Source: Gemmatimonadota bacterium | GTDB lineage: Bacteria; Latescibacterota; UBA2968; UBA8231 | Length of the DNA stretch: 64,000 bases | Direction of reading: 5' to 3' | NCBI GenBank assembly: GCA_018672475.1 | Contig: JABHFS010000120.1 | Location: 83,664-147,663 of the forward strand | Shown: piece by piece, positions 17,570-28,603 of the stretch | Layout: each line of letters starts with the position of its first letter | Numbering within the stretch: position 1 is the first letter of the stretch | Made by a program: the position numbers and the translations under genes | Notes under the pieces: model-generated | Seen by the model: the letters and a program-made list of their open reading frames with translations, nothing else | Told to the model about the DNA's origin: nothing | Database searches by the model: none

Positions 17570-19315
17570 CTATATATAGTACTCAGACCCGCTGGCCTCT
17601 CCCTTTCGCGGGTGCGGGGTATTGAGCGGACAACGCGTTTTGTATGCTGGCTCGAGTCGAGCCCATAAATATTCGAGCGCGTGCTGATTCCAGCGAAAAA
17701 AGTGATCCCTGCCGATATACTCTATTGATCCTGAACGTTCTAAAACGTCGGTAAACTGTCTTTTAGCCCGTGTGAAATAGAGATCGATACCGACTTCGCG
17801 CATCCGCTCCACGACCGCGCGCAACGTCTGTTCTCCGGAGGGGTCAATTCGGTTAATGCCCTCCGCTTCGAGAATCAGATACTTCAACTCCGGCAAGTGG
17901 GCGATCGTTTCGAGTACACTATCCTCAAAATAGCTGCTGGAGCCAAAAAACAACTGACCGTCAAAGCGGATTATCGCGATTTGCTGGTCCTTCTCTAGGC
18001 CTTGAACCTCCACATCCCGCAAGGTGCCATCCAAATGCCGTATGAGATACACGACCCGCGGACGCATCGTCCGATAGAGATTGATCACCAGTGAAACCCC
18101 AACCCCCAACCCTATCCCGACATGCAACGCCGGCGCCAATAACAACGTAGCGACAAAGGTCACGATCCCGACGATGCCATCGAGACGGCTGATGCGCCAA
18201 GCGGTCAACAGTGGGCGGATCTGGACTAGGCCGACAAGCGCCGCCACGATAATAATCGCCAGCGTCGCCTGCGGCAGATAATACAGCAACGGGGTCAACC
18301 ACAGTAAGGTGATTGCCACCATTAGCGAAGTGACGACTGATGAGAAACCGGTACGGGCGCCGCTCTGGTGATTGACGGCCGAACGTGAGAACGACCCTGA
18401 AACCGCATAGCTTTGGAAGAGCCCACCCACCAAATTCGCCAAGCCTTGGCCTATGAGTTCCCGGTTAATATCGAGCCGCTGCCGGGTCTGGGTGGCAATG
18501 GTCTTGGCAATGGCCATCGCCTCCATTAGACCGATCAATGTCAAAGTCAGCGCGCCCAAAAAGAGCTGCGGCATGACCTCAAAGTCAATCGACGGAACCG
18601 TCGGCAGGGGCAAACCGCGCGGCACTTCGCCAACGACGGCCCCGCTAAAGCCTGTCAACCAGGAAACAAGCGTCGTAACGACTACCGTTATTAGCATATG
18701 CGGCAACCCCAAACCCACCCAGCGCAACAGCAACAGCAACCCTCCGGCCAGGGCCGCCATCCCCAGGGTCGGCCAATGCACTGCAACTGTCGCAGCGTCG
18801 ACGACGCCGATGACCGTCAATAAGTGCGAATCGCCGCGTTGAGCTTCAACTCCGAAAATTTTGTGCAATTGGGACGTGGCGATGATAAGGGCTGCAGCAT
18901 TGGTGAATCCGACGATGACCGGCCCCGAAAGCAAATTGACCAGTACCCCCAAGCGCAAAACACCCAAGCCCAGGCGAATCAAGCCCACGAGCAAGGCCAA
19001 AACCAGCGAATAGGCGATAAAGTTTTCACTGCCCGCTGGCGCTAGGACTTGAACGGTTGTCGCACTGATCAAAGAAGCCATCGCCACCGGGCCGGTAGCA
19101 AGTTGCCGAGAGGAGCCAAAGAGTGCGGCAACTGCCGGCGGCAGAAAAGCGGCATAAAGACCATAGACGGCCGGCAGACCCGCCAATTCGGCATAGGCCA
19201 TCGCTTGCGGCACCAGAATCATCGCCACAGTAATACCCGCGACCAAATCGGCGCGCAGCACGCCTTGTTGCCGCAACTCGGGCAACCAACGGATAAATGG
19301 AAATAGTCGATCCAT
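17570..19315 (-). CDS. SulP/SLC26 family anion transporter with STAS domain
   Basis: 581 aa from ATG 19315 (MDRLFPFIRWLPEL); the track's extra 29 residues lack homology. SulP proteins carry sulfate, bicarbonate or other anions across the inner membrane. The signature is ADLVAGITVAMILVPQAMAYAELAGLP with about 11-12 hydrophobic segments to residue 425. A C-terminal STAS domain follows (about 435-555; IIRFDGQLFFGSSSYFED, YLILEAEGINRIDPSGEQTL). Substrate cannot be read from sequence; sulfate is plausible given the siroheme reductase elsewhere in the window. It is divergent from the PhyH gene. Confidence 0.9.
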   Translation of the reverse strand: MDRLFPFIRWLPELRQQGVLRADLVAGITVAMILVPQAMAYAELAGLPAVYGLYAAFLPPAVAALFGSSRQLATGPVAMASLISATTVQVLAPAGSENFIAYSLVLALLVGLIRLGLGVLRLGVLVNLLSGPVIVGFTNAAALIIATSQLHKIFGVEAQRGDSHLLTVIGVVDAATVAVHWPTLGMAALAGGLLLLLRWVGLGLPHMLITVVVTTLVSWLTGFSGAVVGEVPRGLPLPTVPSIDFEVMPQLFLGALTLTLIGLMEAMAIAKTIATQTRQRLDINRELIGQGLANLVGGLFQSYAVSGSFSRSAVNHQSGARTGFSSVVTSLMVAITLLWLTPLLYYLPQATLAIIIVAALVGLVQIRPLLTAWRISRLDGIVGIVTFVATLLLAPALHVGIGLGVGVSLVINLYRTMRPRVVYLIRHLDGTLRDVEVQGLEKDQQIAIIRFDGQLFFGSSSYFEDSVLETIAHLPELKYLILEAEGINRIDPSGEQTLRAVVERMREVGIDLYFTRAKRQFTDVLERSGSIEYIGRDHFFRWNQHALEYLWARLEPAYKTRCPLNTPHPRKGEASGSEYYI

Positions 19316-19345
19316 GGGTATACAAACGACACTTATCGGGGTGAG

Positions 19346-19375
19346 TTGACACACGCGCGTTGAACGAATTACAAT
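19346..19375 (+). promoter_or_regulatory. Sigma-70-type promoter of the PhyH/PDZ-repeat pair
   Basis: TTGACA (19346-19351), 18-nt spacer, TACAAT (19370-19375; 5 of 6). About 47 nt upstream of the PhyH ATG in the divergent region with sulP. Confidence 0.7.
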
Positions 19376-19422
19376 AATACGCACTTCTGACGCTTTAACC
19401 ACCCCCAGGCAGCGGAGAGTTC

Positions 19423-20223
19423 ATGAACCCACAGCAACAGCGAAGATTTTTCGAGGAGCGGGGTTATCTCATCGTACCCGACCTGCTCGACGACGATGAA
19501 ATTGCCGCCAGCCGGGCCGAGATCAAACGTCTCCACCAACTCGCCACCGACTTGCACACCCGCGAGGATCCATTGCGTGGCCATTTTCAGCGCGAACCTT
19601 TCGCCCACAACCACAATCGCGGCGATTTGCCCATCTTGAGAAAAATTGAGAATACGCGAAACTTCTCAGATTTTTTTGCCCGGCTTTCTGCGCATCCGAA
19701 CTTGGTCTCGACCATACAAAATCTGCTCGGGAACGACCTACTGCTCTTTCGTAGCACCCTTATGCTCAAACCCGCCTTACACGGTTCCGCCCATGCGCTA
19801 CACCAGGATTCCGCCTATTGGCCCATGGAACCACCGGCCCTGGCCACCGCCAGCATCGCCCTTGACGACGCCACATCGCAAAATGGCTGCATCAAGGTCA
19901 TTCCCCGCAGCCACCACTGGGGCCTGCAGCAATGGGGCCATATCGCACAAGCCCAGGACGCGCCATTGAGCGATCGCGAAGACCTCGACTTATCCGGCCA
20001 GATCGATGTGGAACTCAAGGCCGGATCGGCTGTGCTCTTCCACAGCCTAATGGTGCACGGATCAGGGCCGAATCAGACCGAACACTCCCGCAATACCGCC
20101 CTCTACGCCTATTTCTCGCCGCACGTGCGCTACGTGCCCGGCAAGGGTGCACCCCGTGAAAAATCCTTTCCGGTAATCGCCGGTTTAAATGATGCCACAG
20201 AGCACACCTTGGTCGCCTCTTGA
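19423..20223 (+). CDS. Phytanoyl-CoA dioxygenase (PhyH) family Fe(II)/2-oxoglutarate oxygenase
   Basis: 266 aa. PhyH-family proteins are cytosolic Fe(II)/2-oxoglutarate hydroxylases with a double-stranded beta-helix. The N-terminal helix FFEERGYLIVPDLLDDDEI is typical. The iron facial triad appears as HQDSAYWP (HxD, about 126-128) plus the distal His in FHSLMVHGSGPN (about 210), with the 2-oxoglutarate Arg probably in HSRNTALYAYF. Substrate is unknown: these enzymes act on varied small molecules. The stop codon overlaps the TTG start of the next gene (TTGA), so the two are translationally coupled. Confidence 0.9.
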   Translation: MNPQQQRRFFEERGYLIVPDLLDDDEIAASRAEIKRLHQLATDLHTREDPLRGHFQREPFAHNHNRGDLPILRKIENTRNFSDFFARLSAHPNLVSTIQNLLGNDLLLFRSTLMLKPALHGSAHALHQDSAYWPMEPPALATASIALDDATSQNGCIKVIPRSHHWGLQQWGHIAQAQDAPLSDREDLDLSGQIDVELKAGSAVLFHSLMVHGSGPNQTEHSRNTALYAYFSPHVRYVPGKGAPREKSFPVIAGLNDATEHTLVAS

Positions 20224-22415
20224 AAAAAGTTCTATTGCTGGCGAGCCTGCTGCTATCAACTCCGGGGCGAAGTCAAGAATACCAGGATCTACCCACCGAT
20301 CTTGCCAGCCATTACGGCGTCCTCGGGTTGCGGCCGGCAAGCATCAGCCCCGACAGCCTCGCTGTCGAGCGCGTCATGCTCTACAGCGAGGCCCACCGCG
20401 CGGGGATACAAAAGGGCGATCGGATTATCGCCATTCCCCCCTATCGCATTCGCAACTCCGATGAATTGAGTCGCTGCATCCAGAGCTATGCCCCCGGCGA
20501 TACGCTCTCAATGGTGCTACGTCGCGACGGCCAAACCCTGGAGCTTTCGTGCAGCGTATCCGACATTAAGCACCTCTACTACCTGATGAATGAACAAGGG
20601 ATCGCTAAACCCATCACAGCTCCCTTGCACATCGCCGGGACCAAAGTGCCCCGCCACGAGAAAGCCGCCCGCGATCTTATCCGCCAACAAGATGCCATCG
20701 CAGGATTTTCAGCGTTGCAAAAAGCATGGGCATTTGATGCGGGACGCTACGGCAGCGACACCCGACTTCAGACCGTTAATATGGTCCTGCACGACCCGCT
20801 AACCGCCGGCCGCACGGCCAGTGCCCTGAGTAAATCGGTGACCGCCGACATGTCGCTGGTCGGGCATCTGCACATCGCCGCACAGTATTTGGATCTCGCG
20901 CTAGCAGCCCCACTCCAGGTATGGGATGACCAAGAGAATTCAGCACCGCACCTGATCCTCGCGTCGCTATTGGCAGCCAAGCAAATGACCGATAGCGCCT
21001 TTGCCAAGCTTACCGATAGCGAGCGCGCCGAGCTTGCCAATGCCATACCCGGGCTACTCAAACGTTTCGGCGAAACCTTCCAGTTGGACTCGGGCGATAG
21101 CACTGAAACCGTCGGCCATATTAACACCCTGCGCCTGGCAAAGAAAGTAGATCTCAATTCCCTGTTTCTCGGCGCCTTGCACTTAGCTCAACTCGCAGAC
21201 GGCGACGCACTCAAAACCATCCGCAGGAAATCGCAACAACTCGACCCCGCCCTAATCGATAGCTTACCTCCCGGTACCCAGGGCAAATTCCTCTACGCCA
21301 AATCCACGCCATTAGGCTGGATACTAGTCGGCGATCGAGGACCCAATTTATACACTGGCCATACCGCGGCGATAATCGACCTCGGTGGCGACGACATCTA
21401 TTTTCATAGCGATCCAGCACCTGCCAATATCGCGATCATTATCGACTACGAGGGCGACGACCGCTATATCGGCGGGCCTATTGCCGCGGGCATCCGCGGC
21501 ATCGGCATGCTGGTCGACCTAAAGGGTAATGATCTGTATAAGGGCGACGATTTGGCGTTGGGCACCGCTTTCTGCGGCATCGGCATGTTATGGGACAGTG
21601 AGGGCGACGACAACTACATAAATGCCCAGGTCGGTCAGGGCGCGGCCTTCTTCGGCGCGGGCTTACTGATCGACAGGAGCGGCAACGACCTTTATTCAGC
21701 GGATCTTTTTGCCCAGGGTTTTGGCGGCATGCGCGGCTTTGGCCTATTGCACGACTTAGCCGGCGACGACCACTATCTAGTCGATCGCGCAGTCCCCTCA
21801 TCCTACGGCACCCCCAATACCTATGCCGGCTGGGCCCAGGGCATCGGCTGCGGCTTTAGGGGATACGGGGCGGGCGGGATTGGCCTACTCTTGGATGGCG
21901 ATGGCGACGACGACTACCAAGGTGGAGACTTTGCCCAGGGCGTGGGTTATTTCTTTGGCATGGGCGTGCTGGCAGACCTACGGGGTGATGACCAATATCG
22001 AGGCAGTCGCTATGCGCAGGGGGCCGCGGCCCACCAGGCCGTCGGTGCATTGATCGAAACCGGGGGTAACGATCGCTATGAAACAAAAATAGCGGCATCC
22101 CAGGGTGCTGGCTGGGATGCCGCTATTGGCTATCTGGCCGATCTGTCAGGCAACGACCACTACGTGGCGTTGCACTTGAGCCAAGGGGCGGCGGCGATGA
22201 ACGGCCTCGGTTTACTCTTCGATGGCAATGGCCGAGACCGCTACGAGACGCAAACCGGCCAAGGTCAAGGCAGTTCGGCAACCTATTGGGGCGGGCGCAA
22301 CGCGCCCAATCTGGGCTTGCTGATTGATCTTGGCGGTGACAAAGACACCTACAGTATCAGAAAGAACCAGGCCGACGCCCACGATGCGGGAATCGGCCTT
22401 TTCAGTGATCGCTAA
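20220..22415 (+). CDS. Secreted PDZ protein with about 12 tandem Asp-rich repeats, unknown function
   Basis: 731 aa. It has a signal peptide (MKKVLLLASLLLSTPGRSQ) and a PDZ-like domain about 30-110 (GVLGLRPASISP, HRAGIQKGDRIIAI). A helical middle region spans about 110-365. From about 380 to the end run roughly 12 repeats of 26-35 aa with consensus G-x-G-x-L-x-D-x-x-G-[DN]-D-x-Y followed by an AQG-type turn (GVLADLRGDDQYRGSRYAQG is one unit). The regular GDDxY spacing suggests a beta-solenoid, perhaps calcium-binding, in the periplasm or on the surface. I cannot name the family. Start TTG 20220 overlaps the PhyH stop, which couples a secreted protein to a cytosolic oxygenase. Confidence 0.78.
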   Translation: MKKVLLLASLLLSTPGRSQEYQDLPTDLASHYGVLGLRPASISPDSLAVERVMLYSEAHRAGIQKGDRIIAIPPYRIRNSDELSRCIQSYAPGDTLSMVLRRDGQTLELSCSVSDIKHLYYLMNEQGIAKPITAPLHIAGTKVPRHEKAARDLIRQQDAIAGFSALQKAWAFDAGRYGSDTRLQTVNMVLHDPLTAGRTASALSKSVTADMSLVGHLHIAAQYLDLALAAPLQVWDDQENSAPHLILASLLAAKQMTDSAFAKLTDSERAELANAIPGLLKRFGETFQLDSGDSTETVGHINTLRLAKKVDLNSLFLGALHLAQLADGDALKTIRRKSQQLDPALIDSLPPGTQGKFLYAKSTPLGWILVGDRGPNLYTGHTAAIIDLGGDDIYFHSDPAPANIAIIIDYEGDDRYIGGPIAAGIRGIGMLVDLKGNDLYKGDDLALGTAFCGIGMLWDSEGDDNYINAQVGQGAAFFGAGLLIDRSGNDLYSADLFAQGFGGMRGFGLLHDLAGDDHYLVDRAVPSSYGTPNTYAGWAQGIGCGFRGYGAGGIGLLLDGDGDDDYQGGDFAQGVGYFFGMGVLADLRGDDQYRGSRYAQGAAAHQAVGALIETGGNDRYETKIAASQGAGWDAAIGYLADLSGNDHYVALHLSQGAAAMNGLGLLFDGNGRDRYETQTGQGQGSSATYWGGRNAPNLGLLIDLGGDKDTYSIRKNQADAHDAGIGLFSDR

Positions 22416-22419
22416 AAAA

Positions 22420-22941
22420 TTAGATTGGCCTGAGGATCAGCGACATCTCACGACCCTCCATCTTCGGCTCTTGATCGACAACGGAGACATCTGTGAGCTT
22501 CTCGGCTAAACCACGCAAAAGCTCGCGCCCCCGCTCTTGGTAGGCCATCTGCCGTCCGCGAAAACGCACGCTGACTTTGACGCGATTGCCCTTTTCGATA
22601 AACTCGCGAATATGGGCCATCCGGTATTCGAGATCGTGCTCAGAGATATTGGCCCCGGCGATGCGGATGCCCTTCATCTGCACGTTGTGCTGTTTCTTGC
22701 GCGCTTCTTTAGCCTTTTTTTCCTGGTCGTAACGATATTTTCCGTAGTCGATAATACGGCAAACCGGGGGGCGCGCTTCGGCCGCGACCTCAACCAAATC
22801 GAGTTCAGCTTCTTCGGCCATGGACAAGGCCTGTGCTGTTTCGACGACACCGACTTGTTCTCCGTCGGGGCCAATTAGGCGCACCTGGGGCACGCGAATG
22901 TCGCCATTGACCCGGGTGACACTCTTTCTCTTTGTTGCGAT
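22420..22941 (-). CDS. infC: Translation initiation factor IF-3 with ATC start codon
   Basis: 173 aa. IF-3 binds the 30S subunit, checks start-codon/initiator pairing and prevents premature 50S joining. The N-domain has RVPQVRLIGPDGEQVG and PPVCRIIDYGKYRY; the C-domain has EHDLEYRMAHIREFIEKGNRVKV. The ORF track starts at GTG 22893, which would delete the conserved N-terminal segment (VTRVNGDIRVPQVRL). Reading upstream, the only well-placed initiation site is ATC at 22941, 8 nt after GGAGG. Non-canonical AUU/AUC starts are known in infC of other bacteria, where they allow autoregulation. rpmI and rplT are absent downstream, which is unusual. Confidence 0.93.
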   Translation of the reverse strand: MATKRKSVTRVNGDIRVPQVRLIGPDGEQVGVVETAQALSMAEEAELDLVEVAAEARPPVCRIIDYGKYRYDQEKKAKEARKKQHNVQMKGIRIAGANISEHDLEYRMAHIREFIEKGNRVKVSVRFRGRQMAYQERGRELLRGLAEKLTDVSVVDQEPKMEGREMSLILRPI

Positions 22942-26184: not shown

Positions 26185-26287
26185 AGTCTACCTCCTCTTT
26201 CTGGCCTACAACTAAAGCAAAAGCCAATATCACAGGCAAGTTCGGTTGACCGATCTCTATACTGCCGCGATATTTTGCTGTTGGCTT

Positions 26288-28603
26288 ATGTCATCTGCTA
26301 CGGAAAAAAAAACCAGTCTCTCGCGCGGGCAAACCCACCGAGCCCTGAACTCCTTTGTCGCCGCCAGCGGCCTCTGGGGTGCATGGGGACAGGCCTGTGG
26401 GTTGGGCACGGCGGCCTTTACCGGCTTCGCATTGCACCTCGGCGCCGACGACTCCTTTATCGCCCTTTTCACCTCGGCCGCGTATTTCCTGGCGCTGACC
26501 CAGCTCTTAGCACCGTTGTTGAGTGCGCGAATCCGCAACAAGAAACACTTCGTTATCGGCGCTGGTTGCGTCGAAATCGTCTTTCGCGGCCTACCGCTGA
26601 CCATTCCCTTTTTAGTGCCCGAACAATATCGCTTGATAAGCCTGGTCGCGATGGTCTGCCTAAGTTTATTCAGCGGCTACTCCATCTCGCCATTCTACAA
26701 CACCTGGATCGCCAACGCGGTGCCAGAAAACACCCGTGCCCGCTTTGCCAGCCGCCAGACCATCGTCAGCACCGTAGTGGCCATGGTCGCCGGTTTCGCC
26801 ATCGGCCAATTCCTCGATTTGTTCCCCGATGGCAGCAAAGAAGAGGGCTTCGTCTGGGTTTTTGCTGTCGGCTCCTTCTTTGGCCTACTCGGCTATATCA
26901 ACCTCTTCCGCGCCCCGTACCCGAAACAAGAAACCTCCGCTGACAGCCAAGCTCCGGGACTGCGCGATCTATTGCAACCCTTACACGACCCGCACTTCCG
27001 TCGCGCGGCCCTCTTTTACGGGTCTTGGACCTTCAGCCTCGGCCTCGCCGGACCGCTCTATAGCGTTTTCATGCTCGATCGCCTGGCGATCTCCTATACC
27101 GAAATATCGATCTTCAACGCCCTCTTTATGCTGGCCAGTATCGCCGGCTATCGCATCTGGGCCGGACTAATAGACCGCTTCGGTTCTAAACCGGTGCTAC
27201 AAATCTTGATGGTCCCCGCGAGCTTCCTGCCCTTCGTCTGGGCTTTCAACCAACCGGAATCCTATTATCTGGTGCCCGTCGCCCTGGTGCTCAGCGGCAT
27301 TATTTTTTCGGGTATCGGGGTCAGCATCAACCCCCTGCTCTTCGCGCTATTGCCCACAGGTGAAAAACGCACGATCTATCTGGCCACGTGGTCTGTTTCA
27401 GTCAACTTAATGGGCGCCCTCGGCCCACTGATCGGCAGCATATTGGTATTCCAATTGCAAGACCTGCGCTTTAGTTTGCTGGGTATTCCCATGGGCAACC
27501 TACAGGTCCTCTTCGCCTTGAGCGCCTTAACCCGCCTAGTCCCCTTGCTTATTCTGAGAAAGATCAACGACGCCAAGGGCAACACCTCCCGCAGCCTATT
27601 GTCCAGGATGCTGCGCGGCAATGTACTCAGCTATGCTTACAACGCCACGATCTACAGCCTTGCTACCGCCGAATCCACGCGTGCACGCGCCGCCGAGGCC
27701 CTTGGACGCTCCGGTAACCCGCTGGCGATCGAGCAATTGGTACAAGCGCTTACCGACGCTAGTCCAAGAGTCCGCCGCAGCGCCGCCCGAGCCCTCGGCG
27801 AGAGCGGCGCCGAAAGCGCGGCAGAACCCCTTGTCCGCGAGTTGCTCGATGGAGCTTCGGATATCCGCAGCGAAGCGGCAGAGGCACTTGGCCGCCTCGG
27901 GCAACCCACCAGCATAGATCCCTTGGTCGACGCCCTTGACGATGCCGATTCCCAGGTCCGCATCAGCGCTATCCGCGGCCTGGCCAGCATTCGCGGCGAA
28001 GAGGTTCACGAATTGCTGTTCTGGCACTTCGGCAGCGACTTCGACCCACTGACCTTCCCAACGCTGGTCGACGTACTCGGCGAACGGCAGGACCGCCGCA
28101 TCGTTAAACCCGCGTTGCGGCGCCTGGTCGACTTCCCCTCGCCCGCCGTGCGCCTGCAACTACTCAACGGAGTCTGTCGGGCACTGGGCACCGGAGACCA
28201 GTTCTATCGCCTGCTTTCGCGAGACGACAACGACCGGGTCGCGACTATTACTCGTCTACTCAAAAGAGCGACGACCGTATTGGTGTCAGCCCGTTGCATA
28301 GAGCAAGCCCATCACCCCCGCTTAGGAGAACTTTGCAGCCGGTTAGTGTTGGCCTATGAGGAGGATAAGGCGGAAGAAATGGTCGAGACCATGAAGCAAA
28401 TTGTAATCACCGTGCGCGATGGCCTCTCCGGCAGCGGCGAGCAAGCGTATGAAGTGCTCTCGATCTATGTCGTACTGATCGCGATCAACAATTTCATCAA
28501 CAATCCCACTAGAAGTGATTCACCCATCGCACAAGAGATCTTTCTCGTCGTCTGTCTCCAACGCATGGCAGGGCTAATCGGCGAGATCGATAAACGGGCA
28601 TAA
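26288..28603 (+). CDS. MFS transporter fused to C-terminal HEAT repeats
   Basis: 771 aa from ATG 26288; the TTG at 26246 is an alternative. Residues about 15-430 form a 12-segment major facilitator domain (GFALHLGADDSFIALF, RARFASRQTIVSTVVAM, ISIFNALFMLASIAGYRIWAGLIDRFGSK). From about 440 the protein turns soluble, with at least three HEAT/PBS-lyase-type repeats of 31 aa (ARAAEALGRSGNPLAIEQLVQAL, VRRSAARALGESG, RSEAAEALGRLGQPTS) and further helical repeats to the end. The fusion suggests a cytosolic scaffold or regulator attached to the carrier. The substrate is unknown. Confidence 0.85.
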   Translation: MSSATEKKTSLSRGQTHRALNSFVAASGLWGAWGQACGLGTAAFTGFALHLGADDSFIALFTSAAYFLALTQLLAPLLSARIRNKKHFVIGAGCVEIVFRGLPLTIPFLVPEQYRLISLVAMVCLSLFSGYSISPFYNTWIANAVPENTRARFASRQTIVSTVVAMVAGFAIGQFLDLFPDGSKEEGFVWVFAVGSFFGLLGYINLFRAPYPKQETSADSQAPGLRDLLQPLHDPHFRRAALFYGSWTFSLGLAGPLYSVFMLDRLAISYTEISIFNALFMLASIAGYRIWAGLIDRFGSKPVLQILMVPASFLPFVWAFNQPESYYLVPVALVLSGIIFSGIGVSINPLLFALLPTGEKRTIYLATWSVSVNLMGALGPLIGSILVFQLQDLRFSLLGIPMGNLQVLFALSALTRLVPLLILRKINDAKGNTSRSLLSRMLRGNVLSYAYNATIYSLATAESTRARAAEALGRSGNPLAIEQLVQALTDASPRVRRSAARALGESGAESAAEPLVRELLDGASDIRSEAAEALGRLGQPTSIDPLVDALDDADSQVRISAIRGLASIRGEEVHELLFWHFGSDFDPLTFPTLVDVLGERQDRRIVKPALRRLVDFPSPAVRLQLLNGVCRALGTGDQFYRLLSRDDNDRVATITRLLKRATTVLVSARCIEQAHHPRLGELCSRLVLAYEEDKAEEMVETMKQIVITVRDGLSGSGEQAYEVLSIYVVLIAINNFINNPTRSDSPIAQEIFLVVCLQRMAGLIGEIDKRA

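Follow-up and report, generated by a model that had tools for sequence, protein, structure and literature searches.

A widespread bacterial protein family with a predicted beta-solenoid, attached PDZ or HEAT modules and a lineage-specific PhyH neighbour

Genes and features of the locus

The window analysed here is a stretch of 64,000 nucleotides from a Gemmatimonadota bacterium (Latescibacterota in the GTDB lineage; assembly GCA_018672475.1, contig JABHFS010000120.1). Within it, a gene for a PhyH-family oxygenase is followed on the same strand by a gene for a long repeat protein, and the two are flanked by genes for a sulfate permease and a translation initiation factor. The features are as follows.

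17570..19402, minus strand: SulP sulfate permease, a conserved neighbour upstream of PhyH whether or not the repeat gene is present (PF00916; synteny)
19423..20223, plus strand: PhyH-family 2OG-Fe(II) oxygenase, 266 aa, cytosolic, without signal peptide (Pfam PF05721; human PHYH alignment)
20220..20223, plus strand: TTGA, shared by the TGA stop of PhyH and the TTG at which the repeat gene starts (sequence; same in 4/4 pair-bearing genomes)
20220..22415, plus strand: probably exported protein with PDZ domain, helical domain and 12-coil beta-solenoid, 731 aa (open reading frame; AlphaFold2; dN/dS)
20220..20276, plus strand: signal-like N-terminus, aa 1-19, MKKVLLLASLLLSTPGRSQE (sequence; hydrophobic N-terminal stretch in the family)
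20319..20555, plus strand: PDZ domain of HtrA/Deg-like type, aa 34-112 (PF13180; Foldseek to Deg PDZ domains)
20652..21239, plus strand: helical domain, aa 145-340, conserved together with the solenoid family-wide (AlphaFold2 helices; alignments)
21288..22385, plus strand: predicted 12-coil beta-solenoid, aa 357-722 (AlphaFold2 of the solenoid alone; unit conservation)
21858..21860, plus strand: R547, identical in 64/64 aligned members (alignment)
21948..21950, plus strand: Y577, identical in 64/64 aligned members (alignment)
22032..22034, plus strand: H605, identical in 64/64 aligned members (alignment)
22116..22118, plus strand: D633, identical in 64/64 aligned members (alignment)
22420..22893, minus strand: translation initiation factor IF-3, conserved on the downstream side, where it marks an empty site in genomes without the repeat gene (PF00707, PF05198; synteny)

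The upstream gene clearly belongs to the phytanoyl-CoA dioxygenase family. Its product scores 130.7 bits against the Pfam profile PF05721, whose cut-off is 22 (E 1.2e-37), and matches human PHYH (2a1x) with an E value of 4e-20, with the HxD...H...R stretches aligned. In this family HxD...H forms the iron triad and the Arg binds 2OG; the LHQD and HGSGPNQTEHSR stretches of the window protein align to those of 2a1x, showing that the triad and the 2OG-binding Arg are both present. An initial sequence-only reading of the locus had described these two open reading frames and their TTGA overlap, and our analysis recovered all of them, the overlap lying at 20220-20223.

The downstream gene is under purifying selection, with dN/dS values of 0.18 and 0.24 in comparisons with two orthologs from the same genus. 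That its product carries a signal peptide, a PDZ-like domain and about 12 regular Asp-rich repeats had also been proposed from the letters of the window, and each of these features was upheld. The N-terminus is signal-like, and a hydrophobic N-terminal stretch is found in 56 of 64 family members, a clear one being missing in the other eight, some of whose starts are uncertain; judged by this hydrophobicity, the protein is probably exported. The PDZ domain scores just above the Pfam cut-off for PF13180 (28.8 bits against 27) and is matched by Deg PDZ domains in structure searches. We counted 12 units of the D-x-x-G-x-D-x-Y type, anchored at D387, D409, D433, D459, D485, D512, D559, D586, E613, D641, D668 and D703. 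The exact motif G[DNR]DxY occurs in 11 of them, the twelfth reading DLGGDKDTY, and composition shuffles of the 387-aa tail averaged 0.1 such matches and never exceeded 2. The units recur about every 26 aa (range 22-28), and units 6 and 11 are each followed by an insertion. Between the PDZ domain and the repeats, the helical domain contains a conserved region around P193 and L194 in both family alignments (A1 and A2).

Fold, distribution and attachments of the repeat family

An AlphaFold2 model of the full repeat protein, built with 64 sequences, reached a mean pLDDT of 94.0 and a pTM of 0.93 and placed the PDZ domain at residues 34-112, helices at 145-340 and the solenoid at 357-722. Foldseek with this model returned DegQ, DegS and HtrA PDZ domains (E 8e-6) and, among the matches listed, only PDZ matches; the solenoid was therefore modelled separately, with a pLDDT of 94.6 and a pTM of 0.93. 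Both models bear out the beta-solenoid that had been suggested from the repeats. Against the PDB, the solenoid gave no Foldseek match at E 0.001 (best E 1.7, probability 0.05), and nothing significant was found among viral structures. Profile searches for a known annotated domain, which had been put forward as a check on the repeats, were also negative: the repeat region had no match in Pfam or NCBIfam, and the sequence profile of the solenoid had none below E 1 among PDB chains. We conclude that the coil fold is confidently predicted and has no close solved relative in the PDB and viral structures searched.

Known systems resemble parts of this protein. It shares its PDZ type with the periplasmic HtrA/Deg proteases and is, like them, probably extracytoplasmic, but it has a helical domain and a solenoid in place of a serine protease domain; no trypsin-like protease domain was found in Pfam and NCBIfam searches, and only the PDZ region aligns to HtrA models. 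The RTX calcium-binding beta-rolls (PF00353) are likewise solenoids in a probably extracytoplasmic setting, and the G-[DN]-D-x-Y turn is similar to GxDxU, one half of their nonapeptide. Unlike RTX proteins, with their 9-residue repeats, the repeat protein has coils of about 26 residues, an N-terminal signal-like sequence, a fixed set of 12 units with a non-repeating candidate site, and PDZ or HEAT partners. The repeats were rejected as RTX on the grounds of this period and of the lack of a PF00353 match at E values up to 1 in Pfam. By analogy with the RTX half-motif, the chances that the DxxG[DN]DxY turns bind Ca2+ seem to us evenly balanced.

Scanning about 85,000 species genomes with alignment A1, we recovered relatives of the repeat protein at no fewer than 492 loci. 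The 80 loci kept from these represent about 20 named phyla, with many in Planctomycetota, and the carriers include Amphritea balenae, Rhodopirellula rubra and the anammox bacteria Brocadia and Kuenenia. Within the host phylum, a family member is present in 27 of 64 genomes. An origin of the gene from a phage or plasmid was rejected, since searches of viral contigs, phages and plasmids found no relative. We found no description of it in the open-licence full-text literature. The repeat family is unnamed and widespread across about 20 bacterial phyla, with a main domain outside the Pfam and NCBIfam models: hundreds of species carry a protein whose principal domain has neither such a model nor a significantly similar solved structure. 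Paralogs of the family cluster in some relatives. Three lie on one contig (L034, 1-12490) near FG-GAP/ASPIC-UnbV and type I phosphodiesterase-family proteins, and two stand in tandem on another (L041, 7060-11483), the second starting where the first ends.

The family core consists of the helical domain and the repeat domain. Of 56 members, 29 have a detected PDZ domain and 3 an Exo_endo_phos domain; 7 of 80 carry HEAT repeats as a C-terminal fusion. A HEAT protein is also the next gene downstream on the same strand at 10 of 76 loci, several of these proteins having a signal-like start; by comparison, there were none among 307 upstream genes and two among 256 genes at positions +2 to +6. Those HEAT-linked members that are present in the tree form one supported clade (99/94), so the association may have a single origin, and it is probably one association that has since been fused or split. 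Other neighbours vary by lineage (MocA-type oxidoreductase, UxuA, M28 peptidase, ExbB and unnamed clusters), and as HEAT alone recurs, function could not be read from operon context. The window itself encodes an unusual fusion of an MFS transporter with C-terminal HEAT/PBS-lyase-type repeats (26246-28603, 785 aa), with homologs at the same position in the genomes of two relatives, one of the same genus (G005) and one of another (G016). As a membrane transporter four genes away, it was treated as a coincidence and discarded as a HEAT partner of the repeat protein.

Invariant residues on coils 6 to 9 and their possible role

Apart from the unit motif and glycines, only M1, P193, Q540, R547, Y577, H605 and D633 are at least 93% conserved in well-filled columns. 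Q540 is identical in 61 of 64 aligned sequences and the last four residues in all of them. In the more divergent alignment (A1, n=18), R547 and H605 are identical in 18 of 18 sequences and Y577 and D633 in 17 of 18. Since the pattern that collected the relatives spanned repeat unit 1 only, the invariance of these four residues was not directly selected for. The 12-unit register is fixed as well: units align one to one across classes and phyla, including the insertion after unit 6, and the window protein and 63 relatives all combine 12 DxxGxDxY units in register with invariant R547, Y577, H605 and D633.

Y577, H605 and D633 sit 4-5 residues past the QG of consecutive units, and R547 sits 7 residues past the QG of the preceding one. 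All four are polar and non-repeating and lie on coils 6-9, and the equivalent positions on other coils vary. From the register and the DSSP assignment we deduce that, in the model, they share one coil corner on neighbouring coils, an arrangement that would suit a groove for ligand binding or catalysis. It is likely that they form one functional site, running in a line along the solenoid, which would bind or chemically act on an extracytoplasmic ligand. Whether it is catalytic is a more doubtful matter, and we lean slightly towards a site that only binds; Foldseek returned no enzyme with a matching R/Y/H/D site. The four near-invariant residues offer a direct mutational handle on function in a culturable host.

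We considered it unlikely that the solenoid has a passive role in structure or adhesion at the surface, comparable to antifreeze or adhesin beta-helices, with the invariant residues only stabilizing the coils at the insertion. The beta-solenoid fold and the Asp- and Gly-rich turns are compatible with such a role, and the highest TM-score among the weak PDB matches belongs to the Ca2+-dependent antifreeze beta-helix of Marinomonas primoryensis (3p4g; TMt 0.43), itself a solenoid with Gly-Asn-Asp-type turns. This match is, however, not significant (E 6.7), the repeat lengths differ, and we know of no invariant polar site in 3p4g. Repeat arrays that serve only as scaffolds tend to vary in copy number, whereas here 12 units are held in register across phyla. 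Polar, non-repeating residues that are invariant while their counterparts elsewhere vary also argue against a purely stabilizing role.

Somewhat less likely still is an exported carbohydrate-active enzyme, a parallel beta-helix lyase or hydrolase acting on polysaccharide or peptidoglycan. Enzymes of this kind act with a few residues projecting from adjacent coils, and the layout of the candidate site matches such an arrangement; weak Foldseek matches do include colanidase tailspikes. Those matches are nonetheless insignificant (E 2.6, probability 0.03), the Pfam search revealed no such family, and sugar-related genes are not consistent neighbours.

The reading that we prefer is instead that of a probably exported protein whose helical domain leads into a 12-coil beta-solenoid and which often carries a PDZ domain at its N-terminus. 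The DxxG[DN]DxY turn of each coil would probably stabilize the solenoid, perhaps through Ca2+ held between coils in an RTX-like manner, and the PDZ domain, or the HEAT-repeat protein in other lineages, may dock a partner or substrate. In its strongest form, this reading would make the family a phylum-spanning group of previously undescribed exported enzymes or ligand receptors, with a novel kind of Ca2+-stabilized solenoid of fixed length, an Arg-Tyr-His-Asp site distributed across adjacent coils and PDZ or HEAT docking, which we put forward only tentatively.

The PhyH gene as a neighbour of the repeat gene

The sequence-only reading had taken the cytosolic oxygenase and the exported repeat protein to be an unusual unit that may define a pathway, a claim that the wider survey did not sustain. 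Neighbourhoods were read in 21 of the 27 repeat-bearing genomes of the host phylum (the window's and 20 others), and the pair, in the order SulP-PhyH-repeat-IF-3, was found in four. Among 11 genomes of the same genus, three including the window's have the repeat gene, each time behind PhyH. The other eight have a PhyH ortholog of about 73% identity beside SulP with no repeat gene there, and none was found elsewhere in these genomes. The fourth occurrence of the pair is in a genome of another genus (g7, G016). The survey of co-occurrence thus added three genomes to the window's, but across the broad scan, in which some contigs were short, a nearby PhyH was detected at only 1 of 80 loci, and this one is the same record as G016. 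Elsewhere in the phylum, five genomes of genus g5 have the repeat gene without a PhyH ortholog at E 1e-50, and in genera g3 and g6 the PhyH ortholog and the repeat gene lie at separate loci.

In the genomes surveyed, the pair is therefore limited to two genera of one family, and each gene persists alone. The simplest reading is that the adjacency is ancestral in the window's genus and g7, the repeat gene having been lost in part of the former. In seven of the eight same-genus genomes without the repeat gene, IF-3 directly follows PhyH after a short gap, the eighth (G003) being rearranged downstream. In those seven, a short terminator-like inverted repeat stands between PhyH and IF-3, giving a clean empty site.

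All four pair-bearing genomes share the TTGA overlap, and no obvious Shine-Dalgarno sequence lies 5' of the TTG, which together make coupled translation plausible. Retention of this junction in two genera, at repeat-protein identities of 46-94% to the window's, would favour a true two-gene unit in which the cytosolic 2OG oxygenase produces or alters a metabolite handled by the exported protein, yet this is very improbable in view of the eight same-genus genomes that keep PhyH alone, the g5, g3 and g6 genomes, the single broad-scan locus already counted among the four, and the abundance of PhyH genes in the window's genome. That genome, with an assembly of 6.6 Mb, contains at least 150 PhyH genes above the cut-off, a density of no less than one in about 44 kb, which makes a PhyH gene an unremarkable neighbour. 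On synteny and distribution we rejected a conserved unit, and an obligate one is largely refuted. We conclude that PhyH is a local, dispensable neighbour of the repeat gene and not its partner, neither gene needing the other.

That the family is real and its pairing with PhyH non-obligate we hold with high confidence. With moderate confidence, we favour the account as a whole: a widespread, probably exported family with a predicted 12-coil solenoid and a putative R/Y/H/D site, beside which PhyH is a lineage-specific operon neighbour, possibly coupled in translation through the stop/start overlap and engaged in separate chemistry. The locus thus leads to a family of predicted beta-solenoids, to which PDZ and HEAT modules are attached, and not to a PhyH pathway; correcting the link avoids a false pathway assignment in genomes rich in PhyH. 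The paralog expansion in the window's genome is extreme, the gene at 19423-20223 being one copy among those at least 150. PhyH-domain genes have been reported as highly abundant in Poribacteria (PMC3909097).
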